From: Candidatus Hydrogenedentota bacterium
GTDB lineage: Bacteria; Hydrogenedentota; Hydrogenedentia; Hydrogenedentales; JAGMZX01
Reading direction: 5' to 3'
Length of the DNA stretch: 44,541 nt
Assembly (NCBI GenBank): GCA_029556545.1
Contig: JAKQEQ010000024.1
Coordinates: forward strand, 1 to 44,541
How positions within the stretch are numbered: position 1 is the first letter of the stretch; each line of letters starts with the position of its first letter. Shown here piece by piece: positions 10,841 through 42,334 of this stretch. The notes beneath the pieces were generated by a model. That model did no database searches. It had not been told where the DNA came from and saw nothing but the letters and a program-made list of their open reading frames with translations. Made by a program: the position numbers and the translations under genes.

Positions 10841-11196
10841 CGCCGCCGCTACGCCTCCCGAAGGCCATCGGGCCAGCCCGGCGACGTGGCCGCTATGACA
10901 ATTATGGCCATATGTCCAGACATAAAGGCCTGTCCGACAAGGACTTGCATTTCTTGCCACCAATTCCGTACAAATTCCGTATTCCTATACGAACTGGAAA
11001 TACCGCGCTTATCCCGGATACGGTGAATTTTCTTGTTGACGGGGCGGGGACTTTCGGCTAGTATATTGCGGATTCTTGGGATACCTTGTGTACCCGGTAT
11101 TCCAGGACTTGTCAGTTTTCATCGAATGGCGCTTTGGGCTGAGCCAGGACAGGCTACAACTCCAAACACTAACCTGTGTCGGAATGGGAGGCAATT
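10841..11196. other. 356-bp intergenic leader region of the giant surface-protein gene
   Basis: No gene is seen here. The stretch is richer in AT than its surroundings. It holds a good promoter (11036-11064), a leader of about 125 bases, and five related GGTATTCC-like motifs around the promoter: 10977-10985, 10996-11004, 11014-11023, 11078-11085 and 11093-11103, in both orientations. It also holds a direct repeat of ATTCCGTA near 10964 and 10975. GGGAGG at 11186-11191 is the ribosome binding site for the ATG at 11197. Confidence 0.6.
11036..11064 (+). promoter_or_regulatory. Sigma70-type promoter of the giant surface-protein gene
   Basis: TTGACG (11036-11041), a spacer of exactly 17 bases and TAGTAT (11059-11064). 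The -35 matches 5 of 6 and the -10 matches 4 of 6. Transcription would start near 11071. Confidence 0.6.
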
Positions 11197-17100: not shown

Positions 17101-20100
17101 AACAGCGTGTTCGTGGACACGACGGGCGGCGTCCCGACGCTTACCCTCGAAACGGGGACTGTGAAACGGCAGGCGACGTATGTGAGCGGTAGCGGCTCCA
17201 CGGCCCTCCTTTTCGTGTACAAGGTGCTGGCCGGCGATTCCTCGCCGGACCTGGACTACCTGTCGTCGGTTGCCCTTAACTTGAACGGCGGCACGATCAA
17301 GGACTACGTGAACGACGCTGATCTGCTGCTGCCCGGCCCCGGCCAGGCCAATTCGCTCGGCGCGAACAAGAATATTGTCATTTCCGCCGTATTGGCCGAG
17401 GTGACGAATGTGACGAGCACCACGGCCAACGGATCGTACCGCGCGGGCCAGACCATCACCCTTTGGGTCGACTTCTCGAAGCCGGTTACCGTTACCGGCA
17501 CGCCGCTGCTCATCCTCGAGACCAGCGCCGTCGACAGCGCGGCCGAGTACATCACCGGCAGCGGCTCCTCGACGCTGCGGTTCCGCTATGTCGTCCAGCC
17601 GGGCGACACGTCGCCGGACCTGGACTACGTCGACGTCAACGCGCTCGTCCTCAACGGCGGCACGATCAAGGACTCGCTCGGCAACAACGCCGTGCGCGAC
17701 TTGCCCGCGCCCGGCGGAGAGGGCTCGCTCTCCTTCAATAAGGACCTCGTAATCGATACGACGCCGCCGGAGATTACGTCGATTACACGGTTGAATCCGC
17801 CCGACGCCATCACGAGCGCAACCTCGGTCACGTTCGCCGTCACGTTCAGTGAGCCGGTCACCGGCGTCGCGACCACCGATTTCGAACTCGCCATGACGGA
17901 CATCACGGACGCCTTCTTCACCGCCGTCACCGGCGACGGCACGGATTACACCGTTACCGTCAATACCGGCTCCGGCTCTGGCACGGTCGGCCTGAACGCG
18001 AACGCGACCGACGGCCCGTCCATCGACGCGGCGGGCTACCAGCGCTCGGGCACGCTCACGGGCGAGGTCTACACCATCGACAAGACCGGACCCACCGTTA
18101 CCGCGATCGACCGCTCCGTGCCGCCGGGCGACATTACCGGCCTGGCGTCGGTCACGTTCGCCGTCACCTTCGACGAGGACGCCTTCAACGTCGCCGAGGC
18201 CGACTTCACGCTGGTCGACACCGGCGTAAGCGGGGCGGAAGTCACCGGGGTGAGCGGTAGCGGCCAGAACTGGAACGTCACCGTCAGCACCGGCACGGGA
18301 AACGGCTCGATCCGGCTCGACGCCAATGCATTCGTCGATGGTCCGGCCGAAGACGCCTACGGCAACCTCCGCTCAGGCGCCTTCGAGGGGCAGACCTACA
18401 CCATCGACAAGACGCAGCCCCATATCACGGCGATCAACCGATCCGTTCCCTTGGGCGCGCTGACCAACGCCGCCAGTGTGACTTACGCGGTCACCTTCGA
18501 CGAAGACGTGCTTAATGTCGCCGCCGCGGACTTCGATCTGGTCACGACCGGCGGCATTACCGGCGCGTCCATAGGCACGATTGCGGGTAGCGACGCGAAT
18601 TACACCGTCGAGGTGGACACCGGCACGGGCGACGGCACGATCCGGCTCAACGCCAACGATGCCGCCGACGGCCCCGCCGAGGACCTCATCGGCAACCTCC
18701 GTACCGGCTCGTTTACCGGACAGATGTACACCGTCGATAAGACGCCCCCGACGCTGCTCTCCATTACCCGCGTCGGCGCGAACCCGACCAACGCGGCCTC
18801 CGTCACCTTCGTCGCCACCTTCAGCGAATCGGTCGGTGGCGTCGCGGCGGCCGACTTCGCCATCGCCGCCTCCGGCGTCTCCGGCGCGGCCATCACGAAC
18901 GTCGACGGTTCCGGCGCGGCTTACGCCATCGAAGTCAGCACGGGAACCGGCAGCGGCACGCTCGGCCTCAATGCCGCGCCCACCGACGGACCCGCAGCCG
19001 ACCCGACAGGCAACCTCCGCACCGGCGCGCTGACCGGCGAGGTCTTCACCATCGACCGCACCGGCCCGCAAGTTACCGCCATCACGCGCTCCGTGCCGGC
19101 GGGACCGCGCACCAACGCCACCGAGGTCGAATTCCTCGTCCAGTTCGACGAGCCGGTTACCGGCGTCGTCGCGGGCGACTTCTCCGTCGTGGCGGTCGGT
19201 GTGGCCGGCGTTGCAATCCAGTCCATCAGCGGAACGGGTGACCAGCGGACCGTCACCGTGGCCACGCCGACTGGCGAAGGCACCGTGCGGCTCGACGCCC
19301 TGGCCGGCCCCGGCCCCGCGACGGACCTCCTCGGGAACCAGCGCACCGGCGCGCTCACGGGCGAAACGTATACCTTCGACCGCACCGCGCCTCAGGTCAC
19401 GGCCACTAACCGTGCCGTGCCCGCGCAGCAGACCACGAACGCCGCGAGCGTCACTTTCCTCGTCACGTTTAACGAAAATGTGACCGGCTTCGCCGCCGGC
19501 GACTTCGACCTCGCCCTCACCGGCACGGTCTCCGGCGCGGCCATCACCGCCGTCAATGGCAGCGGTACGAACTGGACGGTGGACGTCAGCACCGGCGCGG
19601 GCGACGGCACGTTGGGCCTGAACTCCGTCACGGGCGGCCCTGGCACGGACGTGGCCGGCAACCCGCTCGAAGAGGGCTTCACGGGCCAGACCTACACGCT
19701 CGATAAGACGCCGCCGTTGGTCTCGGTCAACACGCTGCGCACGAACGACCCCACGCCCGCGCTCAGCGGCTCCGTGAACGACAACGACGCCACTATCAGC
19801 GTTACGGTCGACGCGCAGACGCTTCCCGCGGTGAATAACGACGACGGCACGTGGACCCTCCCGGACAACACGCTCGCGGCGCTGCTCGACGGCGTTTATG
19901 ACGTGGTGGCGGTCGCCACCGACCCGCCGGGCAATCCTGGGACCGATACGTCGACCAACGAACTGACCATCGACACCACGCCGCCGTCGATCACGAACAT
20001 TCAGTCGACTGTCCCGCAGGCGGAGCGGGGCGACGTCGTCCAACTTGCCGCGACCGTCACCGACGTGAGTCTCCTGGGCACGCCGACACTCACTGTGAAC

Positions 20101-21855
20101 GGCAATCCCGCCACGTTCGATACGACCGTGGGCGGCGTGTACACCTACTCCTACACCATCCTCCCATCCGACCCGCTCGGGCCGACGACCATCGTCGTCT
20201 CGGCGACGGACGGACTGAATCCCGCCCAAGCCACCAACACCACGGCGCTCGAAGTGATCGACATCACCCCGCCGACGCTGCTGTCCATCACACCTATCGG
20301 CCCCAACCCGACCTCGGAAACCAACGTCGAGTTCCAGTTCGTCTTCAGCGAAAACGTACAGGACTTCGACGCGACGGATGTCCAGTCCGCGGTCACCGGC
20401 ACGGGCCTCGGGGCCATCGTGCTCAACGCGCCCGTCCAAATCGACGGCGCAACCTACACGCTCAATGTCACCGGCATCCACGAGGAGGCCGAGGGGACCA
20501 TCACCCTGTCGCTCCGCGCGACGCAGAACATCCGCGACCTGGCGAGCAACGCGCTCGTACTCACGGGCGTCTCGGGCATGGTGACATTGAGCAACGAACT
20601 GAGCGTGTCAGCCGTGGCTGGCGGCGGTTACTTCTACACCGGCGACAACGTGGCGCTGTCGGTCGTCCGCACGGGCGGCACCGGTCCCTACACGTTCACC
20701 TGGAAGAAGAACGGCAACCCGATCCCCGGCGCGCCGAACGCGGCCGCCTACGCATTCACCGCCGCGGTGAACGTCGAGGACCTGTACACCTGCACGGTGG
20801 TGGACCAGTTCGATAACGCCACCGTCACTGCCGCCGCGGCCTCGGTCCAGGTCCGCGAGCCCCTCGCGGTCGATGTTCCGGCGACTGTCGGCGCGTATCT
20901 CGGCGGCCCCGCCACGCTCGACGCCACCGTCACCGGCGGCTTCACCCCAGTCGCGTACCAGTGGTACAAGGACGCCGACAACGACGGCCAGCCGGACGCG
21001 GGCGAAGAGGTACTCAACGGCGGCGCGTTCTCGGGCGCGACCACGGCGACGCTGGTGATCGACCCGGTGGACGGCGAAGAAGGCGATTACTTCGTCGTGG
21101 TGACGGATGCGAATCCGACGCTGCCGCCGAAGTCGTCGCTCCAGGCGGTCGTCGTCTCCGACATCATCGCCGTGATCAGCGGCCCGGCCTTGACGATCCT
21201 CGGGCCGACCCCGAACTTCGTCCAGCTCTACAGCGACCGGCCCGCGTTCCAGATGTCTATCACGGCCACCGGCGGCATCGAACCGCTCGCCTTCGAGTGG
21301 TTCCACGCGCTGCCCGAACTGCCGCCCCTGTCGTTGGCCGCGCTGCCCGGCGGAACCACGACCGAGGTAACCATCAACCCCGCGGACATCCCGCGCGGCG
21401 ACGCCGTCATCTATTGCGTCGTGTCGGACGCGGCGGGCGACCACCCGTCGGACAACGCGCTCGTCGAAATCGAGGATCATCTGTCCTTTGTCCAGGAACT
21501 TCGCGACGCCGTCGCGGAACTTGGCAAAGACTTCACGTTCGAACTCGAAATCGGCGGCGGCCTCGGCGACATCGTCTTCGAGTGGTCGAAGGACGACGGC
21601 ACCAAGGCGTTTGTGCCCATCGCGACGACCTCCGAGCCGAGCCTGACACTGCCGACCGTCACCGCCGAGGACGCTGGGCTGTACCAGGTGCAAGTCTTCG
21701 ACGAGGAAGAGATGATCTCGTCTCAGGCCATGTTGACGGTGAGCGCGGGCGTGCCCGCCGCCGGCCTCGCGGCGCTGAGCCTGCTCGTCGGCGCTTGCGC
21801 CGCGGGCGGCGCCATGGCGCTCCGCCGCCGCAACCCGCGTAGGGGAGGCAAATAG
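11197..21855 (+). CDS. Giant secreted Ig-repeat surface protein with PA14-like domain
   Basis: The protein is about 3,552 residues. A signal peptide (VSLVLLSVLIFGSGAADG, to about residue 27) is followed by a PA14-like domain (about 29-165: GLLGRYFNN, YTFYVYTDDGNRLWVND, YPIKLEFFDSGG), which suggests glycan binding. Residues about 169-2189 hold thirteen 120-130-residue Ig-like repeats (VTNVTS, VxFSEPV, GDxSPDLDYV, LxNKxLVID) plus three of another type (TNAQEVTWRVTF). Residues 2190-2838 hold six repeats of about 108 residues (SVTFAVTFSEPV, GTGDGTIRL). More divergent Ig-like units follow, then about four Ig domains with Trp cores (3135-3516). The tail is VPAAGLAALSLLVGACAAGG plus an Arg-rich end. 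The start has GGGAGG upstream; the GTG at 11176 is rejected. A surface adhesin or matrix protein is inferred. Confidence 0.85.
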   Translation: MYTHFRVSLVLLSVLIFGSGAADGLENGLLGRYFNNTTATEPNVMTRTDPTVNFYWPDGVSPAVGVNANFSAQWTGYVKAPGTGTYTFYVYTDDGNRLWVNDVSLTNRWAAGAGPENSGSIALVEDELYPIKLEFFDSGGVGFAYLSWEGPNVPYKQIIPATYLFRDEVPTVVNVTSSLSNGGYRATQVISVEIEFSEDVTVTGTPALLLDMITTDRSASYVSTDGAVITLSYTLVAGDNAPDLDYVIVNSLTAGTIVSAVTGRYADRTLPFPGTAGSLSYNKNLVIDTVVPTVTAATGGVRSPMPDGTYRIGDEIDIQVYFSEPMWVTGSPTLLLETGVLDTPAVYDSGSGSNVLVFLYTVQAGDFSVDLTYQSTSALSPNTAVADIAGNNPVAAMLPAVTAAGSLFANNNLFINGVPIVVNVTSPVDDGRYRVGDVIPIHVEFSDPVVVTGTPTLTLRVNDTGPVNVATPYSAEESALIPDGKTMVFLYTVAANHNHVDVRYLNTTSLALAGGTIQDELGNNATLTLPAVGAPNSLDGNKQIVVESTAPTVSTNVRQNPTTTPTNAQEVTWRVTFADGGAAGALGGVTGVDANDFTITHTVVGISGAEVIDVTPVSDLIYDVTVDTGTGNGTLRLDVLTSAGATISDIAGNPYTANYTGGNIFAIDKASPTVTNVTSPTANGSYRAGQTINIQVVFSKAVTLNPVGAAYAWLLLETGAVDRTAPYLSGSGTTTLVFQYTIQPGDASPDLDYVATNSLYLLSGFEGATLRDALGNNADLTLPAPAGAGSLAANKALVIDTVIPYVTNVSSSSIDGTYFSGGQIIIQVTFSEPVNVTGAPTLLLETGAVKRAVAATNGTGLLNVNFVYNVANGENSPDLDYVAVDALGTVGVIQDPAGNLADRTLPEPGEPGSLGFNNDLIVTTDPVVIDVTSDVEDRRYGLGEVIPIKVVFSEPVNVPGAPTLTVNSNPNVAVPYTSGAGTDTLVFNYTVGAHNRDDLNYAATTSLAPNGSIQAVDNSNNAILTLPALAAASSLAGHKQIVVDGLPPTVTTNVRLTPSGQNTNAQEVTWRVTFLDNGPTGAVFPQGMLNVGVNDFTPTVTAGSITGATVLSVTQGATPLIWDVTVDTGTGDGNLRLDVLNTATMTDTAGTPYVANYQAGALYTIDKTPPTVTNVGSGLANGTYSVNTVVDIGLTFSENIILLPRTVGASLGLTLETGDVDRVAYYQAGGATVTTITVRYTVLAGDTSPDLDYVSINALELLEGSTLRDAVGNDAVLTLPVPGTPGSLGANKNIVISPMPTVVNVTSTVEDKRYGAGQVVPIQVVFSRAVNVTGTPTLTVNSNPNVAAPYVSGGGTDTLVFNYTVAAHNRDDLNYAAITSLALAGGTIRAVDTAANATLTLPALTAPNSLASNKDITVDGIAPTVSGIVRQDPTVQNTNSDTVVWRVTFVDNGPAGVHPLGVKNVDVADFTPTVTAGSMTGVTVTNVTEVTPLIYDVEVDTGTGNGTLRLDITATTPPVATITDNAGTSYAQNINTNANTFIVNKTPAVITNVTNGLADAVGNKYSAGQNIDITFTVDKAITLLPRTVGASVGLTLETGTVDQTAYYLSGGNNATTFVVRYTVQPGDEAADLEYLSVNALQLLEGSTIRDVWGNDANLTLPALYGTGSLGFNKNLVIDTEIPTVVNVFSTTANGTYGNGAIISLSVQFSEPVIVAGTPVLTMAAGNTNRNTATITGSGTDTISMIYTVLDGDYSLDLDYVATNSLSAGTSIRDGINAGSNNADRTLPEPGAPGSIGFNNDIVINTRPVISSVNSPLADGTYTVGTTVPIDVVFSEAVIVTGTPPFVNLTTSTTPAAVVAYGSGTGTDTLRFNYVIGAGQNVLDLNAASLVLSGGNLTDTNGFTPLNLNMPAAPNRLMDNKDITIDTTAPRVLNVNSSIANGTYTVDAEIPITVNFTGGIPVAGGGFPINSVFVDTTGGVPTLTLETGTVKRQATYVSGSGSTALLFVYKVLAGDSSPDLDYLSSVALNLNGGTIKDYVNDADLLLPGPGQANSLGANKNIVISAVLAEVTNVTSTTANGSYRAGQTITLWVDFSKPVTVTGTPLLILETSAVDSAAEYITGSGSSTLRFRYVVQPGDTSPDLDYVDVNALVLNGGTIKDSLGNNAVRDLPAPGGEGSLSFNKDLVIDTTPPEITSITRLNPPDAITSATSVTFAVTFSEPVTGVATTDFELAMTDITDAFFTAVTGDGTDYTVTVNTGSGSGTVGLNANATDGPSIDAAGYQRSGTLTGEVYTIDKTGPTVTAIDRSVPPGDITGLASVTFAVTFDEDAFNVAEADFTLVDTGVSGAEVTGVSGSGQNWNVTVSTGTGNGSIRLDANAFVDGPAEDAYGNLRSGAFEGQTYTIDKTQPHITAINRSVPLGALTNAASVTYAVTFDEDVLNVAAADFDLVTTGGITGASIGTIAGSDANYTVEVDTGTGDGTIRLNANDAADGPAEDLIGNLRTGSFTGQMYTVDKTPPTLLSITRVGANPTNAASVTFVATFSESVGGVAAADFAIAASGVSGAAITNVDGSGAAYAIEVSTGTGSGTLGLNAAPTDGPAADPTGNLRTGALTGEVFTIDRTGPQVTAITRSVPAGPRTNATEVEFLVQFDEPVTGVVAGDFSVVAVGVAGVAIQSISGTGDQRTVTVATPTGEGTVRLDALAGPGPATDLLGNQRTGALTGETYTFDRTAPQVTATNRAVPAQQTTNAASVTFLVTFNENVTGFAAGDFDLALTGTVSGAAITAVNGSGTNWTVDVSTGAGDGTLGLNSVTGGPGTDVAGNPLEEGFTGQTYTLDKTPPLVSVNTLRTNDPTPALSGSVNDNDATISVTVDAQTLPAVNNDDGTWTLPDNTLAALLDGVYDVVAVATDPPGNPGTDTSTNELTIDTTPPSITNIQSTVPQAERGDVVQLAATVTDVSLLGTPTLTVNGNPATFDTTVGGVYTYSYTILPSDPLGPTTIVVSATDGLNPAQATNTTALEVIDITPPTLLSITPIGPNPTSETNVEFQFVFSENVQDFDATDVQSAVTGTGLGAIVLNAPVQIDGATYTLNVTGIHEEAEGTITLSLRATQNIRDLASNALVLTGVSGMVTLSNELSVSAVAGGGYFYTGDNVALSVVRTGGTGPYTFTWKKNGNPIPGAPNAAAYAFTAAVNVEDLYTCTVVDQFDNATVTAAAASVQVREPLAVDVPATVGAYLGGPATLDATVTGGFTPVAYQWYKDADNDGQPDAGEEVLNGGAFSGATTATLVIDPVDGEEGDYFVVVTDANPTLPPKSSLQAVVVSDIIAVISGPALTILGPTPNFVQLYSDRPAFQMSITATGGIEPLAFEWFHALPELPPLSLAALPGGTTTEVTINPADIPRGDAVIYCVVSDAAGDHPSDNALVEIEDHLSFVQELRDAVAELGKDFTFELEIGGGLGDIVFEWSKDDGTKAFVPIATTSEPSLTLPTVTAEDAGLYQVQVFDEEEMISSQAMLTVSAGVPAAGLAALSLLVGACAAGGAMALRRRNPRRGGK
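12451..16239 (+). repeat. Three copies of a three-domain super-repeat inside the giant gene
   Basis: Copies lie at about 12451-13606, 13972-15093 and 15094-16239. Each has the order A' (VxDxRY, VIPIxVVFS, ...AAHNRDDLNYA), then B (TNAQEVTWRVTF, DVTVDTGTGNGTLRLDV), then a long A'' with an insertion such as LLPRTVGAS before LTLETG. Copies 2 and 3 are adjacent. Single A repeats at 13607 and 16240 onward surround them. The unit length is about 1.12-1.16 kb. Confidence 0.75.
17764..19710 (+). repeat. Six tandem Ig-like repeats of about 320 bp
   Basis: Units begin near 17764, 18088, 18418, 18745, 19066 and 19387. Shared features are ITxxNRSVP, TNAASVTFxVTFxExV, ADFxL, STGTGxGTIRLxA, GPAxDxxGN and GxTYTIDKT. 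They resemble bacterial Ig-like domains with the S-E-P-V-T-G-x3-x-D-F signature. Confidence 0.8.
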
Positions 21856-32536: not shown

Positions 32537-35500
32537 TTACTGGGATGCCTGCGCGGCTTGATCGCCCACTTCTCTTACGCAGGCCCCGGTGTTCCCCGGT
32601 TCGGGGTGTTTCCAGTCCGCGTGGTGCTCATGCGCCCAGACGTCGCTGACCTTGCCGCCGAAGAGACTGCGCAGGCTATGCGGCACGACGACGGTGGCGA
32701 GGTACACGTGGGCCATGAGCAGGACGATCATGACGAGCCCGGCCACGTCGTGAATGGTGTACAGGAGTTCCTGGCCCGCGAAGTGTGCGTCGCGGTTGAG
32801 GCCCATGAGTACACCGGTGACGATGAGCGCGCCGAAGGCCGCCACAACCATCCAGAAGAGGACTTTCTGGCCGGCGTTGAATTTGCCGGCGGGCAGGTGG
32901 CCCTTCACGCCGCCGAGGTAGCCGCCGGCCTTGAGCAGCCACTTGAGGTCGCCGCGCGCGGGCAGCATCGAGAGGAGCCAGACCAGGACCATGATCAAGA
33001 CGCCCACGGAGGCGACGTAGCCGAAGTAGGTGTGCCAAGGCCGGGCCCAGTGGGCGAGCGGGTCGCTCTTGCCAAGCAGGAAGCAGAACCCGGTCACGGC
33101 GAGAAACACGACGGTGGTCATCGACACAAGGTGGCTGAGCCGCTCGTGGATGCGGAACCGCACGACGTTCGGCGGGCCGGCCGGGCTGCCGCCCTTGATG
33201 CCGAAGATGACGAAGTGCAGGATTATCATCGCGAGCACGGCGAGGACGGCGTAGGGGGATAGCGGCTTCAGCACGGTTTCGCGCCATGCGCCTATAAGCA
33301 GGTCCTGCTTGTTATAACCGAGCGCCTCGTACATGGGTCTCGTGGCGGGTGTGCCGTCGGCGGTGTAAGGGTCCGTGGCGATGGAGCCGAAGAAGAAGTG
33401 CGCGTCCGCGGCGTGGCAGTCGGCGCAGCCGTTCGCGCCGAGGGCCATCTTCGCCGGTTCGACGCCGTGTGAGACGGTCCAGGACAACCGTTGGGCCAAC
33501 GCGGCGATCTCAGGATGCGTCGCGGGGTCAACGGGCTGGACGGCGACTTCGTATGCCGGGGCGATCCGCATCTCGCGGCGTTCCCAGACCATCTGGGGCG
33601 GGTCCCAACTGCTTTCGCCGGGTCTCTCGACCCGTTCGTGGCGGTCGATGCGCAGGAACGGCGCGCCTTCGGCGACGGGGGGCATCTCGGTCAACGCGCC
33701 ATCGTAGGGATTGCGCCAATCGGCGATCTCCACGCGATACACGGTCTCGCCCTTGACGTAGAACAGGTCGCGGTCCGCGAGGCGCGGCGCGGTTTGCTTG
33801 AGCGCCCACGCGACCGCTGCGATTTCCTCGTCGGTGTTCGCCTCGGGGAACGAGTCGTTATTGTCGTCATGGATTTTGACGAGTCGGCGTTCTTCCGGCT
33901 TGAACGCGGTGAGCTTGCCGGTAATGGCCGCGGCAAGTTCCGCCTCGGACGGCCCGGGGGCCTCCGCTGTCTCCGCCGTTTCCGCGACCTCCGATGCGCC
34001 TGGCGGGGTTTCCTCCGCCGGAGCCTGGTCGGCGGGGGCTGCGGCGTCTGACGAGTCCGACGGGTCCGACGAGTCTGACACGTCCGACACGTCCGTCGGG
34101 TTCGCCTGAGCGACTCCGACGGCGGGCGACGGCGCGCCGTCCGCGGTATGGCCGGGATAGAGGTAATGCTTGTATTCGTCGTCGTGCAGGAAGTTCCAGG
34201 CCGCCTTCATTTCGCGGGGAAACAGCGGTCTTGCGAACTCGCCGTCCATGATCGCCCAGAAGACGCCCAGTTGATAGCCTTCGGGATGGATAACGCCGCC
34301 GTCCTTGGCGCGCGCGAAGGCGAAGGGGGATGCGGCGATGGTGGCGCCGGGTCGGCGAGGCTGGAGCGTGCTCTGCACCTCGCGCATCGCGCCGAACTGG
34401 AGGTGGTACGCATTTCCGCGAAATACGCCCACTGCATGCTCGCCGGACGCGCGCGATTCAAGAAGCGTATCCAGTGCGAACAGCATGGCGGCGCGCGCGG
34501 ATTCCGCTTCGAGTCCGCCGAGGCGGGCGACCTCGTCGCGGACGCGGAAGGGCTCTTCTGACAGACCCGGTGCGCTTTGCCGGATAGGCGCATCCGCCGG
34601 GACGATCATTTCCGCCGCCTGGGTCAGTTCCTCTTGCGTGAACGGCTGGAAGCGGCTGTCGAGCACGTCGCTCAGGATACTCCCCCACATGGCGCCGAAC
34701 ATCCAGGTATCTGCGGCGCTCGGGTCGGTCTCGAAGGGCAATTGCCGCCAGTCGCCCGCCACGGTGTCCACGACGCCGGTCCCGATAAAAGGCCGCGTCG
34801 TAATGTGGCACGCCTCGCAGCTGATTCGTTCCAAGTGAAGGTACGGCAGCCACTCGTGCTTGTAATCCGGCGCGCCCAATACCTGTTGCTCGTGGCACTC
34901 CTTGCACGAGAGCATCGAGTCATCGAGGTTGTCGCGCACGGTCTGGCTGGAGGACGAGCCCTTGGCGAAATTGTGGCGGAGGTCCCCCGGGTGGCACTTG
35001 AGGCAGGTCATGCCCTGTTCGGTGTGGACGTCATACTCGTAATGCTGATGCCACGTGCTGCCACGTTTCTGCACGCTCGAAATGTCGTGGCAGAACAAGC
35101 ACTGACGGTCGCCGGGCCGCTGGATGGGCAGGTGAACCGTACCGTCGGCCAGGAACAGACTCTTCTTGTAGTAGACATTCGGGGTCTGGCCATCGGCCAC
35201 CGATCCCCAGACATAACCCAGGCCCGAAGCCGCCGTCGCGGCCCACTTAAAATTAAGCTTCTTGATCTGCTGTGCCCGTATTGAGTATTCGTAACCCGCG
35301 AGGTGGCAGATAAAACAGTCCGCCTCCATCACACCGGTGAGTTCCCAGGGCGACTCGTGATAGTCGCCGTCGCCCATGTACGCGAGTTCGCGGTCGAGCC
35401 GGAGCGCCCGGTCGTAGCGTTGGCCGGCGCGGTCGTACTCGGCCGGGCCACCGCCCGGATGACAGACCCCGCAGCTGACGATCCACTCGAAGGGCGTCAT

Positions 35501-36007
35501 ATCCACGTGGTCGGGGTCGTCGAAATACTTGGGCGAGAGCTCGCGCTGATAGAGCAGTTGCCACTTGCCGAAGAAACCCGGGCTCCGATGCGGCGAAGTG
35601 CCTGCCGTCGCCGGGGATTCGGCGAATAGTTCGTCGCGGCCCGTCATGAAGTGATAGCCGTGGGTGACGCGGTCATAGTCGTGGCACGCGCCGCAGGTAT
35701 TGCGCGTGCTGATGGCGCGCGGGATGCCTCGCACGTCCTTCGGATCGACGGGCTGGCCGAATTCGTCCTTCGTGGGGTCGATGATTTCGCCGTTCTCGTC
35801 GAGGAGGTGGAACGGCGGGCAGGCAAGCGGCAGGGTACGGATGAGGTCAGCGTTGAGCGCGCGGCTGTCCTCGACCAAGGGGCGACCGATGTACTTGTCG
35901 AAGTTCTCGATCTCGGATTGCGCGGACTCTTCTGCCGCGCCAGGAACCAGCGTCACGCACCACACCAAAACAGCCAAGGCCGCGCGGGTAAACGAAGTTC
36001 TTACCAT
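32537..36007 (-). CDS. Octaheme cytochrome c fused to a cytochrome b561 / FDH-gamma-like membrane domain
   Basis: The protein is 1,156 residues. A signal peptide (ALAVLVWCVTLVPGAAEES) precedes a periplasmic part with eight CxxCH c-heme sites: Cys105, 179, 231, 303, 335, 368, 397 and 861. A loop of low-complexity Asp-Ser and Glu-Ala (about 637-680) separates heme 8 from the rest. From about residue 895 a membrane domain with about five helices follows. RFRIHERLSHLVSM, WHTYFGYVASVGVLIM and IHDVAGLVMIVLLMAHVYL carry the His residues that bind two b hemes in formate dehydrogenase gamma/NiFe-hydrogenase cytochrome b subunits. Inferred role: electron transfer between quinol and a periplasmic multiheme centre, possibly a reductase. 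No SGAT flavinylation motif is seen. The substrate is unknown. Confidence 0.85.
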   Translation of the reverse strand: MVRTSFTRAALAVLVWCVTLVPGAAEESAQSEIENFDKYIGRPLVEDSRALNADLIRTLPLACPPFHLLDENGEIIDPTKDEFGQPVDPKDVRGIPRAISTRNTCGACHDYDRVTHGYHFMTGRDELFAESPATAGTSPHRSPGFFGKWQLLYQRELSPKYFDDPDHVDMTPFEWIVSCGVCHPGGGPAEYDRAGQRYDRALRLDRELAYMGDGDYHESPWELTGVMEADCFICHLAGYEYSIRAQQIKKLNFKWAATAASGLGYVWGSVADGQTPNVYYKKSLFLADGTVHLPIQRPGDRQCLFCHDISSVQKRGSTWHQHYEYDVHTEQGMTCLKCHPGDLRHNFAKGSSSSQTVRDNLDDSMLSCKECHEQQVLGAPDYKHEWLPYLHLERISCEACHITTRPFIGTGVVDTVAGDWRQLPFETDPSAADTWMFGAMWGSILSDVLDSRFQPFTQEELTQAAEMIVPADAPIRQSAPGLSEEPFRVRDEVARLGGLEAESARAAMLFALDTLLESRASGEHAVGVFRGNAYHLQFGAMREVQSTLQPRRPGATIAASPFAFARAKDGGVIHPEGYQLGVFWAIMDGEFARPLFPREMKAAWNFLHDDEYKHYLYPGHTADGAPSPAVGVAQANPTDVSDVSDSSDPSDSSDAAAPADQAPAEETPPGASEVAETAETAEAPGPSEAELAAAITGKLTAFKPEERRLVKIHDDNNDSFPEANTDEEIAAVAWALKQTAPRLADRDLFYVKGETVYRVEIADWRNPYDGALTEMPPVAEGAPFLRIDRHERVERPGESSWDPPQMVWERREMRIAPAYEVAVQPVDPATHPEIAALAQRLSWTVSHGVEPAKMALGANGCADCHAADAHFFFGSIATDPYTADGTPATRPMYEALGYNKQDLLIGAWRETVLKPLSPYAVLAVLAMIILHFVIFGIKGGSPAGPPNVVRFRIHERLSHLVSMTTVVFLAVTGFCFLLGKSDPLAHWARPWHTYFGYVASVGVLIMVLVWLLSMLPARGDLKWLLKAGGYLGGVKGHLPAGKFNAGQKVLFWMVVAAFGALIVTGVLMGLNRDAHFAGQELLYTIHDVAGLVMIVLLMAHVYLATVVVPHSLRSLFGGKVSDVWAHEHHADWKHPEPGNTGACVREVGDQAAQASQ
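34046..34099 (+). repeat. Six-copy 9-bp tandem repeat inside the cytochrome gene
   Basis: Six 9-mers are present: GTCTGACGA, GTCCGACGG, GTCCGACGA, GTCTGACAC, GTCCGACAC and GTCCGTCGG. On the coding minus strand they encode a run of Ser-Asp-Val/Ser/Pro triplets (VSDVSDSSDPSDSSD). The repeat length and GTCC core match the array at 9983-10018. Confidence 0.75.
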
Positions 36008-36046
36008 GACACGTGCGTCTTTCCTTCCGGGGAGAAGCTGAGGTCA

Positions 36047-36077
36047 GCCGCGGCGCGGAAACGGCCCGCGCCGCGGC
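36047..36077 (-). promoter_or_regulatory. Perfect 12-bp GC hairpin in the cytochrome 5' leader
   Basis: GCCGCGGCGCGG and CCGCGCCGCGGC pair perfectly around a seven-base loop, in the 86-bp gap between the oxidoreductase stop and the cytochrome start. With no U run it may be an attenuating, stabilising or processing structure that sets the ratio of the two products. A terminator role is the alternative. Confidence 0.5.
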
Positions 36078-36093
36078 GGGGGTACTTCCGAGT

Positions 36094-37563
36094 CTAGCTG
36101 ACGACCGACGGGTCAGGCGTCGGGAAGTCGAATGTGTACCACGCGGGGTCGATTTCGACCTCGCGGCGTTCCGCCATCGCGATGTAGCCGGCCAGGCCGA
36201 GAATGGTCGAGCGCAGGCCCACCATGACATTGGACTTGGGCGCGCCGCCGTTGCGGATATAGTAGGCGAAGGCCTGGAACTGGAGCTGGTCGATGGACTT
36301 CGTATTGTCCACCACGATCGGGTCGCCCTGCTGCTGCGCCTTGTTCGAGAGCTGGAGCGTGCCGCCCGAGGTGATGACTGTCGCGTTCTGCTGCGAGGCG
36401 GCCTGCGCGCTCGAACTGCTGGCCCACTTGACCTTCGAGGTCGGCTCACGGAAGAAGTAACCGCCGTCCTCGGTGAGTTCGAAGGAGCCTTCGTCGCCCT
36501 GGATCAGTTCGCTGCAGCCCTTCTTCGCGTTGGCCGTGATGCTGGAGTAGACGACACAGACTTTGTACGGCTCGTTAATGCGCAATTTATCCTGCTGGTC
36601 GTTCCGCGCGTTGATGGCGTAGTAGCCGCGGCTTTCGGGCGTGATCTCGTACTCGTAAATCACGTTGACGTGGTCATCCACCTCGCGTCCGTCGCGCCAG
36701 TAGTCGAGGCCGCCGTAGCCGTACACGCGCTTCGGCATCGCATCGAGGAACCACGACGCGATGTCAAGCTGATGCGTCGCCAGTTCGGTCATCAACCCGC
36801 GGGAACTCTCGTTGTACAACCGCCAATTGAGGTGTTTTTCGAGGTCGCGGATAAATTTCGCCTCTTGCGGCGAGAGCCGCCGGTCGGGAAGGGGGCGGCG
36901 CCAGTCGTTGTTGCGGTGCCACTGGCAATCGATATGATTGACGCGCCCGAGGACACCCTCGTTCCACGCGAGGTTTACGGCGCGATTGTACAGGGGATTG
37001 TAACGGCGCTGATGGCCAACCTGGACGAACTTGCCCGTTTCGTGGCTCTTCTTCACCACGTCGCGCGCCTGATCGATCTCGTAGCACATCGTCTTCTCGG
37101 AGAAGACGTGGCAGCCCGACGATAGCGCGTCCATGATCATCTGATAATGCGTGTGCAACGGGGTCGCGATCACCACCGCGTCCAACTGCTCCTTCGCCAG
37201 CATTTCGCGGTAGTCGAAATAGCGGGCCGGTTGCACGGCGCGGTCCAGGCGCTCCTGCTGCGCCGCGGTCAGGCCCGTGTCGCCCGCCTCGAGGAGGATG
37301 CCCGCGTTCGACAGCCACGCCAGCTTGAATCCGTTCTCCTGGTGGGGCCGGTACACGTCGCACACCGCCACGATATCCACGTCCGGGCAGCCCAACAGGC
37401 CGTCCCGCACGTGGTACGAGCCCTGGCCGCCCGTGCCGATGCATCCCACGCGCACCTTTTCGTTCTGCGCGTAGGAGAACGGCGAATAGCCTGTGGCGAT
37501 GGCCACGCCCGCCGTCGCCCCGGCGGCCTTCATGAAGTTTCTCCGGCTTACTGTGTCGCTCAT
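36094..37563 (-). CDS. Tat-exported Gfo/Idh/MocA-family oxidoreductase
   Basis: The protein is 489 residues. SRRNFMKAAGATAGVAIATG is a twin-arginine signal. VRVGCIGTGGQGSYHVRDG is the NAD(P)-binding Rossmann motif, and VVIATPLHTHYQMIMDAL with SEKTMCYEIDQA matches the E-K-P region (here E-K-T). TELATHQLDIASWFLDAMPK carries the H-x2-D that lines the active site in this family. The C-terminal domain is the alpha/beta sheet typical of MocA proteins. Role: NAD(P)-dependent oxidation of a sugar, inositol or related compound, with the folded enzyme exported to the periplasm. The start at 37563 has GAGGAG upstream and overlaps the apbE stop (ATGA). It precedes the cytochrome gene by 86 bases. Confidence 0.88.
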   Translation of the reverse strand: MSDTVSRRNFMKAAGATAGVAIATGYSPFSYAQNEKVRVGCIGTGGQGSYHVRDGLLGCPDVDIVAVCDVYRPHQENGFKLAWLSNAGILLEAGDTGLTAAQQERLDRAVQPARYFDYREMLAKEQLDAVVIATPLHTHYQMIMDALSSGCHVFSEKTMCYEIDQARDVVKKSHETGKFVQVGHQRRYNPLYNRAVNLAWNEGVLGRVNHIDCQWHRNNDWRRPLPDRRLSPQEAKFIRDLEKHLNWRLYNESSRGLMTELATHQLDIASWFLDAMPKRVYGYGGLDYWRDGREVDDHVNVIYEYEITPESRGYYAINARNDQQDKLRINEPYKVCVVYSSITANAKKGCSELIQGDEGSFELTEDGGYFFREPTSKVKWASSSSAQAASQQNATVITSGGTLQLSNKAQQQGDPIVVDNTKSIDQLQFQAFAYYIRNGGAPKSNVMVGLRSTILGLAGYIAMAERREVEIDPAWYTFDFPTPDPSVVS

Positions 37564-38675
37564 GAATCCTGCTCCTCTTGACTTGGAAAGTTTATTCGCA
37601 CCACCCGGGGCGCGCCGTTTTCCGACAACACCAACAAAGCCCGGTATTCGGGATGGGCCGCGCAATAAGCCCGGGCGCGCGCTTCCCCCATCACGAAGAA
37701 GGCCGTACTTAACGCATCCGTCTCCATGGCGCCCGGTCCCACAACCGTGGCGCTCGAAATCCCGGAGACGGGCCACCCCGTCTTCGGGTCCACAATGTGA
37801 CCATACCACTTCCCGTCCAGTTCCAGGAAGTTCTCGGTGCTGGACGAGGTGGACAAGGATTCATTGCTTACCCGGACTTCTGCGATATGTTCACCTTCCT
37901 TATTATACGGGTTCCGGATGTGAATCGTCCACCCCGCGGCTCCGGGCGGCGCGCCGATGGCCTCGACCGTACTGGTGCCCGAGTGCAAGACGGCGGCCCG
38001 TACGCCTTGCGCGCGCAACACGTTCGCCGCGCGTTCGAGTGCAAGGCCCTTGCCGATCCCGCCGAAATCTAGCCGCATCCCCGGCGTCGCAAAGCGCACG
38101 GTCTGCGCTTGTTCGTCTACGGCGACCTTGTCCAGGCCGACCTTGTCGAGCGCGGTCCGGATTTCCTCGTCCGCGGGCAGGTGGCCGTCTCGCGTGTAGA
38201 ATCCCCAGAGATCGAGCAGCGGACCTACCGTTACGTCGAACGCGCCGTCTGTTGCGCGGTGTACGCGCTTGCAATCGAGCAGCAAATCAATCAATGGGGA
38301 AGACACCGCAACCGGCTCATCCGCCGCGCGCCGGTTCACTTGGGAGGTCTCGCTGTCGTCGCGCCAATTGCTGATCCGCCGTTCGATGGTGTCGATAACC
38401 GCGAAGGCCTCGTCGGCCAGATGGCGCAGTTCCTCGACTTGCATGTTCGGGCGCGGGGCGACGAGGATGCACTCGAACTGCGTACCCATCGCCATATGCT
38501 CGAACGTGGCCAAAGGAAGGTCTGGAATCTCCGTTGTGTCATTCGCTTGGGCAAAGCAGCAGCACAGGATTGCGGCGGAGGCAATAGTCCGCAGACCCGG
38601 GAATCCGAGATGAGGATTTCCAGTAAAACGATTAAATATGGCCGTTTTAGCGGCGTTATGCGGGACTCGCGCCAT
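37560..38675 (-). CDS. apbE: ApbE, FAD:protein FMN transferase
   Basis: The protein is 371 residues. An N-terminal hydrophobic stretch (TIASAAILCCCFAQA, about residues 30-44) suggests export, though the n-region is long. Family motifs appear in order: MGTQFECILVA, DGAFDVTVGPLLDLWGF, MRLDFGGIGKGLALERA (D-x-G-G-x2-K-G), YGHIVDPKTGWPVSG (H-x-V/I-D-P-x-T-G) and TDALSTAFFVMG (T-D-A-x-S-T, metal binding). Role: attach FMN through a phosphoester bond to Thr or Ser of exported redox proteins. No target with the S/T-G-A-T motif is visible here. It leads the MocA-cytochrome unit with a four-base overlap to the next gene. Confidence 0.93.
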   Translation of the reverse strand: MARVPHNAAKTAIFNRFTGNPHLGFPGLRTIASAAILCCCFAQANDTTEIPDLPLATFEHMAMGTQFECILVAPRPNMQVEELRHLADEAFAVIDTIERRISNWRDDSETSQVNRRAADEPVAVSSPLIDLLLDCKRVHRATDGAFDVTVGPLLDLWGFYTRDGHLPADEEIRTALDKVGLDKVAVDEQAQTVRFATPGMRLDFGGIGKGLALERAANVLRAQGVRAAVLHSGTSTVEAIGAPPGAAGWTIHIRNPYNKEGEHIAEVRVSNESLSTSSSTENFLELDGKWYGHIVDPKTGWPVSGISSATVVGPGAMETDALSTAFFVMGEARARAYCAAHPEYRALLVLSENGAPRVVRINFPSQEEQDS

Positions 38676-38825: not shown

Positions 38826-39497
38826 GTGGCCGTGGCGGTGAACCGTACCCAGCTAGCCAGGATGATCGAGCACAGCCAGTTGCGCGCGTACGCGACGCAG
38901 GTGGATATTTCGGAGTTGTGCGACGAGGCGCTGCAGTACGGGTTCCACGCGGTGGCGGTGAACCCGGCGTGGGCGCCGTTCTGCGCGAAGAAGCTGGCGG
39001 GGTCGCGGGTGGGCGTGTGCGTGACGGTTGGGTTCCCGCTCGGGGCGAACACGGCGCAAGTGAAACTCGAGGAGGCGCGCGACGCGGCGCGCAACGGCGC
39101 GACGGAACTCGACATGGTGATCAACATCGGCGCGCTCAAAAGCGGCTACCCCGGCTACGTCGAGCGCGAGATAGCCGCCGTCGTCAAAGCGGTCCGCGGC
39201 ATCCCGGTCAAGGTCATTCTCGAGACCAGTTACCTCACGCGGGACGAGAAGATCGCGGTGTGCGAGATGAGCATCCGTGCCGGGGCCGCCTTCGTGAAGA
39301 CCTCCACCGGCTACGGCCAGGGCGGGGCCACCATCGAGGACGTGACGCTCATGAAGCAGGTGGTGGGCGACCAACTCGGCATCAAGGCGGCGGGCGGCAT
39401 CCGGACTTACGGCGACGCCGTTGCGGTAATCCAGGCGGGTGCGACGCGCATCGGCACCAGCGCCGGCGTGGAAATTTTCGAGGACGCGCCACAGTAA
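38826..39497 (+). CDS. deoC: Deoxyribose-phosphate aldolase DeoC
   Basis: The protein is 223 residues, the family length. It is a TIM barrel of class I aldolases: GVCVTVGFPLGANTAQVKL, ELDMVINIGALKSG and VKVILETSYLT, then FVKTSTGYGQGGATIEDV, whose Lys forms the Schiff base, and KAAGGIRTYGDA. Role: cleave 2-deoxyribose 5-phosphate to glyceraldehyde 3-phosphate and acetaldehyde in nucleoside catabolism, in the cytoplasm. The start codon is GTG (38826; another GTG at 38832 is possible), with GGGA a few bases upstream. It is followed 57 bases later by a MocA-type gene, so it may share a catabolic unit. Confidence 0.94.
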   Translation: MAVAVNRTQLARMIEHSQLRAYATQVDISELCDEALQYGFHAVAVNPAWAPFCAKKLAGSRVGVCVTVGFPLGANTAQVKLEEARDAARNGATELDMVINIGALKSGYPGYVEREIAAVVKAVRGIPVKVILETSYLTRDEKIAVCEMSIRAGAAFVKTSTGYGQGGATIEDVTLMKQVVGDQLGIKAAGGIRTYGDAVAVIQAGATRIGTSAGVEIFEDAPQ

Positions 39498-39554
39498 TCA
39501 ATCGCCATATCAGTGCGTGGCGGCATGACCGCGCGCTTACGGAGGAACACGAAC

Positions 39555-40793
39555 ATGAAGGCTGCACGCAAGGACGCGATGGACCGGCGGGAATTCCTGA
39601 GGACGGCGACGGCAAGCGCGGCGGGGATCACGGTCCTCGCCTCAGGCACGGCCACGTCCTATGCCGCAAACGACAGATTTGAGGTCGGCATTATCGGCTG
39701 TGGGGGGCGCGGTATTTGGATTGGCGACCTGTTCCAGAAACACGCGAACGCGAAGGTCGTGGCGGTGCATGATTACTTCAAGGACCGCGTGGACTTGGCG
39801 GGGAAACAGCTCGATGTCCCCGAAGACCGCCGGTACGTCGGACTGGAGGGTTACAAGGACTTGGTAGCGAGCGATCTCGATGCGGTGGCCGTGGAGAGCC
39901 CGCCGTACTTCCACCCGGAGCAGACAGTGGTCGCGCTCGAAGCGGGCAAACACGTCTATCTTGCGAAGCCGATCGCCGTGGATGTGCCCGGCTGCCTCGC
40001 GATCATGGAGGCCGCGAAGGCGCACGCGGGCAAGCTCAGTGTGCTGGTGGACTTCCAGACGCGGAACAACGAACTCTTCCGCGAGGCCGCCCGACGCATC
40101 CACGAGGGGGCCATCGGCACGCCGGTCTACGCGCAGGCGTATTACCATTGCGACCGGCTCGGCAAGCGGAGCGACCAAGGCGGCGAAATCGGACGGCTGC
40201 GCAACTGGTGCTTCGATATCGCGCTATCGGGCGACATCATCGTCGAGCAGAACATCCACGTGCTCGACGTGGCCAACTGGTTCCTCGGCGCGCATCCGGT
40301 CGAGGCGCGCGGGTGCGGCGCGCGGCGCGGCCGGACGGATATCGGCGATTGCTGGGACCATTTCATCGCGCAGTACCGCTATCCGAACGACGTGCTGCTC
40401 AGCTTCAGTTCGCAGCAGTTCGCGCCGGGCTGCGACGACCTCTGCACGCGCGTCTTCGGCACGGAAGGCGCGGCGGACGCCCATTACGGCGGCAATGTTT
40501 CGATTCAGTCGCGCAAGGACCACTGGCCGGGCGGCGAAACGAACCGTATCTACCAGGAGGGCGCGGTCAATAACATGAAGGATTTCCGCGCGGGCATCGA
40601 GAGCGGCAACCTGATCAACAACGCGGAGGACGGCGGCACGAGCACGCTTACCGCGATCCTCGGGCGCATGGCCGCCTACACTGGCGAAGCCGTTACTTGG
40701 GAACAGATGCTGGCGGCCGGGGAGGCGCTCGACCCGAAACTCGACCTTCCCGAGGATGGTCCTTACACCAAGGCGTGGCTCCGACAGGGTTGA
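39555..40793 (+). CDS. Tat-exported Gfo/Idh/MocA-family oxidoreductase (second)
   Basis: The protein is 412 residues. MDRREFLRTATASAAGITVL carries the twin-arginine signal, followed by FEVGIIGCGGRGIWIGDLF (Rossmann). VYLAKPIAVDVPGCLAIM is the K-P motif, and VEQNIHVLDVANWFLGAHP the H-x2-D active-site region. It differs from the first such protein (36094-37563) in the C-terminal domain, so the two are not recent duplicates. Role: probably NAD(P)-dependent oxidation or reduction of a sugar-like compound in the periplasm; the substrate is not readable. The start at 39555 has GGAGG nine bases upstream; the longer frame to 39513 is not supported. Confidence 0.88.
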   Translation: MKAARKDAMDRREFLRTATASAAGITVLASGTATSYAANDRFEVGIIGCGGRGIWIGDLFQKHANAKVVAVHDYFKDRVDLAGKQLDVPEDRRYVGLEGYKDLVASDLDAVAVESPPYFHPEQTVVALEAGKHVYLAKPIAVDVPGCLAIMEAAKAHAGKLSVLVDFQTRNNELFREAARRIHEGAIGTPVYAQAYYHCDRLGKRSDQGGEIGRLRNWCFDIALSGDIIVEQNIHVLDVANWFLGAHPVEARGCGARRGRTDIGDCWDHFIAQYRYPNDVLLSFSSQQFAPGCDDLCTRVFGTEGAADAHYGGNVSIQSRKDHWPGGETNRIYQEGAVNNMKDFRAGIESGNLINNAEDGGTSTLTAILGRMAAYTGEAVTWEQMLAAGEALDPKLDLPEDGPYTKAWLRQG

Positions 40794-41386: not shown

Positions 41387-42334
41387 ATGACATCGTCAAT
41401 GAATCGCCGCGGTTTTCTGCGGACTAGTCTGGCGGGCGTCGGCGCGACGGCCGCCGTATCGACCGCGCTTGCGGCCGCGCCCGAGAAACGCTACCAGGAA
41501 GGCGTCAGCCCGTGGCCGCTGGCGCTGAACGCAAGCACGATCCGCCCGACGCCGCCGCTCGAAAAGATTCGCATTGCGGCGGAAACCGGCTGGGACGCTC
41601 TCGAACTGTGGATAAACGATCTCGAACAAATCGAGAGCGAAGGCGGCAATCTCAAGGAGGTCGCCAAGCAAATCGAGGACCTCGGGCTGTTCGTGCCGAA
41701 CATCATCGGCTTGTGGGAATGCATGCCGCCGACGGAAGAGGCGTTCGAGCAGTCCCTGGAGAAAACGCGCGAGCGCATGCGCCGTTCCGCGGACGTGGGG
41801 TCGCACTACGTCGCCGCCATTCCTGCGCCGGACCGTGAAGATTTCGACCTCAAGTGGGGCGCGGAGTGTTATCGCCGTCTCCTGGAGATTGGCCGCAACG
41901 ACTACGGCATCACCGTCGCCTTCGAGTTCGTGGGCTTCCTCAAGGGCGTCCACCGGCTGGGCCAGGCCGCGGCCATCGCCATCGACGCGGACCACCCGGA
42001 CGCCTGCATCATCTGCGACACGTTCCACTTGTATCGCGGCGGCACGGGCTTCCAGGGCGTGCGGCATCTCGCGCCGACGGCCATCGCCAACTTCCACTGG
42101 AACGATATGCCCGCCGATGTTCCGCAGTTCGAGGGTAAGGACGAGCACCGCATCTATCCCGGCGAGGGCATCTTGCCGCTGACCCAGGTGTTGAAAGACC
42201 TCAAGGCCATCGGCTACGAGCGCACGCTCTCGCTCGAACTCTTCCGCCGCGAGCACTGGGAACAGGACCCGAAAGTCGTGGCCGAGACCGGTCTGCGCAA
42301 GATGCGCGAGAATATCACCGCGGCCGGGGTGTAG
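41387..42334 (+). CDS. Tat-exported sugar phosphate isomerase/epimerase-like TIM barrel
   Basis: The protein is 315 residues. SMNRRGFLRTSLAGVGATAA is a twin-arginine signal. The rest is a xylose-isomerase-like AP-endonuclease-2 TIM barrel. The metal-binding acids and histidine appear in order: Glu in VAFEFVGFL, Asp and His in CIICDTFHLY, His in IANFHWNDMP, and Glu in TLSLELFRR. Role: isomerise or epimerise a sugar or keto-acid in the periplasm; such proteins often accompany MocA-type oxidoreductases, as here. The ATG at 41387 has GGAGA nine bases upstream. It is 40 bases after the thioesterase gene. Confidence 0.87.
   Translation: MTSSMNRRGFLRTSLAGVGATAAVSTALAAAPEKRYQEGVSPWPLALNASTIRPTPPLEKIRIAAETGWDALELWINDLEQIESEGGNLKEVAKQIEDLGLFVPNIIGLWECMPPTEEAFEQSLEKTRERMRRSADVGSHYVAAIPAPDREDFDLKWGAECYRRLLEIGRNDYGITVAFEFVGFLKGVHRLGQAAAIAIDADHPDACIICDTFHLYRGGTGFQGVRHLAPTAIANFHWNDMPADVPQFEGKDEHRIYPGEGILPLTQVLKDLKAIGYERTLSLELFRREHWEQDPKVVAETGLRKMRENITAAGV

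Follow-up and report, generated by a model that had tools for sequence, protein, structure and literature searches.

The stretch of DNA considered here, hereafter the window, is 44,541 nucleotides long and comes from contig JAKQEQ010000024.1 (assembly GCA_029556545.1) of a Candidatus Hydrogenedentota bacterium. The system in question is a row of three adjacent genes on its minus strand, which encode, in reading order, the flavin adenine dinucleotide (FAD):protein flavin mononucleotide (FMN) transferase ApbE (37560-38675), a dehydrogenase of the Gfo/Idh/MocA superfamily with a twin-arginine translocation (Tat)-type start, here called MocA and proposed to be an FMN acceptor (36094-37563), and an octaheme c-type cytochrome fused to an FdnI-type di-heme cytochrome b (32537-36007). 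The apbE stop codon and the ATG of the MocA gene share the bases ATGA (37560-37563), giving an overlap of four bases, and between the MocA stop and the cytochrome start lie 86 bases that hold a 13-pair hairpin without a T-run (36047-36077). The original prediction had described these genes as adjacent on one strand with the first two overlapping, had named the three products and had proposed that they form one unit; the layout and the nature of all three products are borne out by what follows, and the unity of the three genes has had to be qualified.

ApbE matches PF02424 with 258.1 bits against a gathering score of 25.6. Four of its residues, S277, H293, D320 and T324, are invariant in a 12-row alignment, and the first three can be equated by spacing, without alignment to the V. 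cholerae protein, with the catalytic Ser-His-Asp of V. cholerae ApbE, given as S241, H257 and D285 in the accessible text of PMC12052999.

The dehydrogenase scores above the cut-off for PF01408, PF22725 and PF02894 (GFO_IDH_MocA 70.6 bits) and lies below all NCBIfam equivalog cut-offs. Its first 32 residues (SRRNFMK..., 37468-37563) make up a predicted Tat signal region, with the cleavage site placed without a prediction program; TIGR01409 gives 23.2 bits against a cut-off of 16.7, and the Pfam Tat model 21.1 bits, slightly under its threshold of 22.7. Conservation was judged on 46 linked MocA rows, selected by a score above 240 bits, an apbE gap below 350 and a length above 390, in which R7, R8 and F10 of the Tat region are kept in at least 95%. 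The same holds for G43, G45, D69, K157 and H264, which we take to represent the NAD motif (GTGGQG, 43-48) and the catalytic Lys and His. The last glycine of the GxGxxG pattern, G48, is invariant in the 13 cytochrome-linked rows and falls below 95% in the 46. A model built from 12 sequences (mean predicted local distance difference test score, pLDDT, 69.7; predicted template modelling score 0.73) adopts the Gfo/Idh/MocA fold and superimposes on 4koa over 319 residues (Z 28.7, root mean square deviation, rmsd, 3.4), and the best fold matches include sugar dehydrogenases and reductases, NAD-dependent glycosidases, glycoside and glucuronide 3-dehydrogenases and glucose-fructose oxidoreductase (GFOR). 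Several other Gfo/Idh/MocA proteins near the loci studied also carry Tat-type starts.

The third product is a chain of 1156 amino acids with eight CXXCH motifs, at residues 105, 179, 231, 303, 335, 368, 397 and 861. Hemes 1-7 are thus confined to residues 105-401 (34805-35695), and heme 8 (CADCH, residues 861-865, 33413-33427) stands apart, with C861, C864 and H865 invariant in the alignment of the family. Residues 948-1133 (32609-33166) match the formate-dehydrogenase gamma subunit family TIGR01583 with 124 bits (cut-off 115.85), and among PDB sequences only the FdnI chain 1kqf_C matches at E<=0.01 (E 6e-31); the same chain heads the fold matches of the predicted structure (Z 14.5, 195 residues, rmsd 4.7). 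By analogy with FdnI, and on our assumption as to where its b-heme ligands lie, H959, H992, H1086 and H1100 are the probable ligands of the two b hemes. The c-type part of the model has a weak resemblance to octaheme tetrathionate reductase 1sp3 (Z 7.5, 227 residues, rmsd 5.6), possibly in a shared arrangement only; the corresponding family TIGR04315 yields 28.6 bits against a cut-off of 375 and covers residues 317-404 only, and a Foldseek search with the cytochrome model returned no match at E<=0.001. Between hemes 7 and 8 lies a large, folded insert (residues ~430-840), which by eye looks like two copies of one helix-strand module.

The distribution of these genes was followed in a sample of 68 Candidatus Hydrogenedentota genomes (G, C and L numbers below are our labels for genomes, contigs and loci). 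Relatives of the window MocA are found in 61 of them at a match cut-off of E<=1e-40, including 37 of the 38 genomes with at least 90% completeness and at most 5% contamination. In 55 of these 61 genomes a related apbE precedes MocA on the same strand; measured between match coordinates, the gap does not exceed 0.5 kb in 54 of them and is 1.4 kb in the other. The six others comprise two in which MocA sits at a contig end (G004, G053), two with no apbE match on that contig (G006, G038), one with a different open reading frame (ORF) upstream (G011) and one with a broken apbE (G042). By comparison, cytochrome matches (E<=1e-10) occur in 17 of the 68 genomes. The fused cytochrome is preceded by available upstream sequence in 13 loci, the window included, and all 13 carry apbE and a Tat-type MocA upstream in the same order; the recurrence of this three-gene order in 12 further loci of the phylum goes beyond chance. 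The original prediction had named, as an observation that would speak against it, that orthologues of the cytochrome never lie near apbE, and here they regularly do. Two more fused genes occur on contigs of 3.5 and 3.7 kb (G066, G050), and in each case an apbE-MocA pair ends another contig of the same genome.

What follows the pair is variable. Locus contexts were drawn for 38 of the 46 genomes that have this MocA without a fused cytochrome (leaving out G006, G020, G037, G038, G039, G047, G053 and G062) and for G050 and G066, giving 40 loci (L077-L116). The gene after MocA encodes the cytochrome in 13 loci (the window and L035-L046) and a YceI protein in 27 of the 40 further loci; no locus has both, and the remaining 13 of the 40 either end near MocA or carry other genes, or none on the same strand, at that place. 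The YceI proteins are called at 225-387 amino acids (one is cut at 107). All nine that were tested exceed the gathering score of PF04264, with 78 to 111.8 bits, and the other 18 of the 27 were assigned by BLAST to eight of these nine; the PDB YceI structure 1y0g matches a 19-row profile of the family at E 5.3e-30. According to the accessible text of PMC9113575 and PMC8981238, the barrel of YceI lipocalins has been seen to hold octaprenyl compounds or ubiquinone-8, and many bacteria have a YceI lipocalin tied to a cytochrome b561. The conserved, tight unit is apbE with MocA, and the cytochrome behind it is replaceable: of the three-gene unit that had been predicted, the pair is the constant part.

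The phylogeny of MocA follows the same division. A tree of 73 proteins (rows shorter than 380 amino acids excluded, motif columns retained, quick method, midpoint root) gathers all 54 proteins from these loci to one side of a branch whose SH-aLRT support is 100. Within them, a cytochrome branch of 15, made up of 13 with the cytochrome and two at contig ends, has a support of 82, and a branch of 39 that includes every YceI locus has a support of 87. A split form of the cytochrome, in which a gene with seven CXXCH motifs is followed by a separate cytochrome b gene, stands behind another Tat-MocA, one that lacks an apbE, in four genomes (L049-L052); these split-form MocA proteins fall in a different group of the tree, which suggests that the association of Tat-MocA with such a cytochrome has arisen more than once.

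Some members of the cytochrome family depart from the window protein. The insert between hemes 7 and 8 is shorter in the split-form cytochromes, and the cytochrome b domain of the G021 protein (L043:4373-7951) aligns poorly, with long insertions and different motifs, as if it had been swapped for another b-type domain. One family of loci has a gene for a protein of 188-192 amino acids after the cytochrome (L037:8753-9319, L038:14658-15230, L039:9261-9827 and, on the opposite strand, L040:7928-8506), and the L037 copy, the sole one tested, is an FMN_red/flavodoxin-like protein.

The hairpin in front of the cytochrome gene bears on whether the three genes are transcribed together. Of 35 gaps separating MocA from the third gene, 16 contain a perfect stem of at least nine pairs (6 of 13 before a cytochrome and 10 of 22 before YceI), where about 2.7 would be expected from mononucleotide shuffles, which preserve composition and not kinship. 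In three YceI loci (L088, L092, L094) the hairpin has a T-rich, terminator-like tail. The effect on the minimum free energy of the whole gap is weaker, with z values of -1.97, -1.63, -0.46 and -2.65 in four loci. The gap hairpins are long, mostly GC-rich and different in sequence from one another (window 36047-36077, L035, L036, L042, L080, L081, L088, L092, L094, L095, L098, L101, L116).

Such a hairpin would also suit an explanation in which the cytochrome is an independent quinol oxidase of the CbcL/MtrH type that serves extracellular electron transfer, is transcribed separately and has come to lie beside the pair by history. The relatives found outside the phylum lend this some weight. Eight complete ones, of 740-907 amino acids, have eight CXXCH motifs, and in six of these, six helices are predicted (Zixibacteria, Acidobacteria, GN15, Armatimonadetes). 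They stand alone or with other multiheme genes, and no MocA or apbE match was seen in the neighbouring ORFs that were compared, which lie at distances of up to 8 kb. Several of these genes (L066, L068, L070, L071, L074, L076) lie near genes with 10, 19 or 21 CXXCH motifs, the neighbours with 19 and 21 motifs having five or six predicted helices, and the neighbourhoods are possibly extracellular electron transfer clusters. Yet within the phylum the pair is kept at all 13 fused loci with upstream sequence, and the second Tat-MocA lineage is likewise joined to the split form, so that we regard an independent cytochrome as improbable for the window. As for the pair itself, a MocA match (E<=1e-30) was found in three of the 10 outside genomes, a sample reached through the cytochrome that leaves Planctomycetota and Verrucomicrobiota outside it; seven MocA loci there, at 29-35% identity, showed no apbE or YceI match within ~1.5 kb.

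A constant apbE beside a constant dehydrogenase raises the question of which protein receives the FMN. The target consensus of ApbE is given as D-x-x-[S/T]-G-A-[S/T] in section 8 of PMC12052999, a section which also states that replacing Asp by Ala has a minor effect and replacing Ala by Val an effect of about half, and that Thr is preferred over Ser. The original prediction held that no FMN-acceptor motif is visible, and this is correct in so far as none of the three products has a canonical motif; moreover, PF04205 (FMN_bind) gives no match at E<=0.01 in any of them. In a scan of the four families, MocA, cytochrome, YceI and ApbE, for a conserved G-x-[S/T] after S/T with strict thresholds, a single column emerged, and it lies in MocA. 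The window protein reads VITSGGT at this place (residues 396-402) in a variable C-terminal hairpin, so that the candidate attachment site TSGGT (residues 398-402, 36358-36372) would offer T402 to the flavin, and the model predicts strands at 395-398 and 401-404 around it. The statement of the original prediction is thereby limited, since two relatives carry complete DxxSGA[ST] motifs at the same hairpin position, DTLSGAT (L083) and DMSSGAS (L094).

The column was assessed on 54 MocA rows, comprising the 46 linked rows and eight others (second copies and rows without apbE), aligned with MAFFT --localpair. Column 402 holds T in 37 and S in 17, hence S or T in all 54, whilst G400 is present in 48 and S/T399 in 42; position 401 is variable (G 23, K 8, A 6, E 5, others). 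Of 53 distinct MocA loops, 37 contain the pattern [ST]G.[ST]; 300 shuffles, which again preserve composition and leave kinship aside, gave 6.8 on average and 14 at most. The pattern is absent from all 13 loops of unlinked MocA proteins, which score below 170 bits and lack apbE, and from the seven loops from outside the phylum. Full DxxSGA[ST] motifs are found in two of the 53 loops, against a shuffled mean of 0.04 and a maximum of 1. Of the apbE gene upstream of the DTLSGAT protein, only the rear part was matched, in two frames (L083:3279-3669), through assembly error or decay.

Other sites were considered and rejected. DGLSGAT (L041) and DGLTGAS (L077) near MocA residues 54-60, just after the NAD motif, were set aside because their last residue is highly variable across the family, and KRPGAT in the cytochrome (residues 551-556) is unconserved, L043-L046 having no such Thr. 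A loss of the MocA motif where apbE is missing had seemed to occur at L044 (G057); this too was rejected, an apbE being present at L056:5310-6467.

In principle ApbE could instead flavinylate the product of the third gene, cytochrome or YceI. The accessible text of PMC12052999 indicates that FMN is often found in quinone-linked membrane complexes, which would favour such a target. Against it, no conserved [ST]Gx[ST] column exists in the cytochromes (alignments of 13 and 20 rows) or in YceI (19 rows), nor in ApbE itself (12 rows), and the pattern is absent from the whole of the window cytochrome; furthermore, the third gene changes between branches whereas apbE stays constant. This alternative appears very unlikely to us.

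A better candidate amongst the rivals, although still an unlikely one, is that this ApbE modifies proteins encoded elsewhere in the genome and that its adjacency to MocA reflects shared regulation only. A search of the window's own genome for FMN_bind located C151 and C182 only, and exact flavinylation motifs are present in the proteins encoded there, namely NqrB (DGYSGAT), NqrC (DGLSGAT) and a NosR-like protein (DAVSGAT). The last of these (G000:C182:19814-23365, equal to L054:5814-9365) combines FMN_bind with its motif in an unusual frame of 1183 residues that includes a weak spermine-synthase-like stretch. The nqr targets, however, have an ApbE of their own, as a second apbE at C151 closes a complete nqrABCDEF operon. 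Judged by scores rather than by a tree, the MocA-linked apbE is a group distinct from this Nqr-linked apbE: apbE scores across the phylum form two groups, at least 220 bits and, next lower, 165, and 58 of the 61 genomes that contain this MocA have a gene of the upper group, as against none of the seven others (Fisher p 1.2e-7, uncorrected for kinship and completeness).

We are evenly divided on whether ApbE attaches FMN to MocA itself, producing a periplasmic dehydrogenase with NAD and flavin that supplies the quinone pool, and a number of observations weigh against it. Gfo/Idh/MocA genes appear to be very numerous, with a maximum of 119 first-look candidates in a single genome, of which 23 per genome were scored. 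The contrast in apbE just given is softened by this, in that the absence of MocA is not exhaustive for five of the seven negatives (G009, G045, G056, G058, G060), and six of the seven are less than 90% complete. The 54 MocA rows are kin, three of their loci (L083, L115, L116) have no intact apbE, 16 of the 53 loops lack [ST]G.[ST], and under the cruder MAFFT --auto alignment of the 46 linked rows S or T stands at column 402 in 42, with Q in four. SGA[ST] is found in four of the 53 loops and shuffles also reach four (mean 0.8), which makes that count weak by itself, and an SGAT elsewhere in one unlinked MocA chain indicates how little single matches mean. The window site has the S/T, the G and the T of the consensus and lacks its D and A; given the exact motifs in NqrB, NqrC and the NosR-like protein of the same genome, it is a degenerate case. 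Residues 397-401 of the hairpin have a pLDDT below 50, an FMN pocket would be hypothetical, and we know of no flavoprotein with the Gfo/Idh/MocA fold. The NAD motifs would be equally compatible with an enzyme that works without an acceptor. In the second Tat-MocA lineage (L049-L052), which also adjoins a seven-CXXCH multiheme gene and a separate gene for cytochrome b, apbE and the motif are both missing, so not every such pairing needs FMN. Finally, the two-branch tree implies that the exchange of partners amounts to about one event and not to 40 independent ones, the supports of 82 and 87 being moderate, and the gap hairpins may mean that apbE and MocA are expressed apart from, or above, the third gene.

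If FMN is attached to MocA, the following course of events may be envisaged. ApbE would move FMN from FAD to T402 in the C-terminal hairpin, and MocA, exported in a folded state, would retain NAD in its Rossmann site, as the conservation of the motif suggests. The enzyme could then oxidise a periplasmic sugar, polyol or glycoside, with the hydride passing to NAD and from there to the tethered FMN, which would divide it into single electrons. The hydride of NADH has to be split before its electrons can enter hemes, and a tethered FMN is a usual device for this purpose. In the window's lineage the electrons would travel along the octaheme chain to the FdnI-type b hemes and on to menaquinone or ubiquinone, whilst in the other main branch a YceI-type quinone-binding protein would take the cytochrome's place. 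A MocA that holds both NAD and FMN, with its own ApbE and a quinone-linked module, accounts for the constant pair together with the differing third gene. The original prediction had envisaged a periplasmic pathway between sugar-like substrates and quinones; the gene context agrees with this, but the likely FMN acceptor is the dehydrogenase, the cytochrome is replaceable, and related cytochromes outside the phylum have no MocA or apbE among the nearby ORFs that were compared.

It could also be that MocA behaves like GFOR or an NAD-dependent redox glycosidase, recycling its NAD within the enzyme with no external electron acceptor. Both kinds of enzyme are among its fold matches and GFOR is itself Tat-exported, yet neither the constant apbE nor the quinone-linked neighbours would be expected of such an enzyme, and we consider it a doubtful explanation, slightly more so than an ApbE acting elsewhere.

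Taken more broadly, the proposal is of a new class of ApbE substrate, a phylum-wide, Tat-exported MocA with NAD and covalent FMN, a loosened motif, a co-evolved ApbE and quinone modules that can be exchanged, either a YceI quinone carrier or a quinone reductase of the octaheme-cytochrome b kind. Such an enzyme would convert the hydride chemistry of sugars outside the cytosol into single electrons for quinones; this we put forward more tentatively than flavinylation of MocA as such, at a little short of an even chance. To our knowledge it is not settled how Gfo/Idh/MocA enzymes outside the cytosol have their NAD re-oxidised. A tethered flavin, if present, would solve this problem and would extend ApbE chemistry to a large dehydrogenase superfamily. 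T402 provides a test at one residue, and the cytochrome and YceI are two natural partner modules for comparison.

Upstream of apbE the window contains a divergent deoC-type aldolase gene (38826-39497), an arrangement that is seen in 14 loci in all (the window, L046, L078, L079, L086, L090-L094, L098, L111-L113). Beyond it are genes for a second MocA protein (39513-40793) and a xylose-isomerase-like protein (41387-42334), both with Tat-like starts by eye. Elsewhere, positions 11176-21855 form one open frame of 3559 codons.

A literature search, with supplements and subscription papers outside it, found nothing that joins 'ApbE' and 'Gfo Idh MocA'. By term counts, 'MocA', 'YceI' and 'Hydrogenedent' are absent from the main text of the flavinylation survey PMC8238504. 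The accessible text of PMC11334425 has no 'MocA', 'Gfo' or 'octaheme'. Titles and abstract openings of papers on Gfo/Idh/MocA with cytochrome or ketoglycoside hold nothing on this point, and among the matches listed for glycoside 3-dehydrogenases and for Hydrogenedentes there is nothing on an apbE-MocA pair.

The system nevertheless shares features with several that are known. As in the ApbE-flavinylated extracytosolic systems (Nqr, Rnf, NosR, PceC, FMN_bind, flavodoxin-like), an exported redox protein is encoded next to an apbE of its own and to a membrane partner linked to quinones; unlike them, the system has no FMN_bind domain, and it is a Gfo/Idh/MocA dehydrogenase, its motif degenerate, that is proposed as the acceptor. 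With the Gfo/Idh/MocA glycoside 3-dehydrogenases and GFOR the window MocA has in common the fold, the NAD motif, a Lys and His at the catalytic places and, in the case of GFOR, export, and it differs from them in its [S/T]Gx[S/T] hairpin, its apbE neighbour and an EKT in place of EKP, which we take to be the usual motif. The cytochrome resembles, in architecture and not by comparison with the CbcL sequence, the CbcL/MtrH/MtoC quinol oxidases and quinone reductases, in which a multiheme c-type N-terminal half and a six-helix, HydC/FdnI-like b-type C-terminal half form one chain of 416-1034 amino acids (PMC6295460, accessible text); with eight hemes, 1156 amino acids and a large insert between hemes 7 and 8 it exceeds the published lengths, and it adjoins an apbE-MocA pair. 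Lastly, the YceI/BcnA-cytochrome b561 pairs also tie a lipocalin-like quinone binder genetically to a b-type cytochrome, as far as the accessible text of PMC9113575 describes them, whereas here YceI and the cytochrome substitute for each other behind a dehydrogenase.

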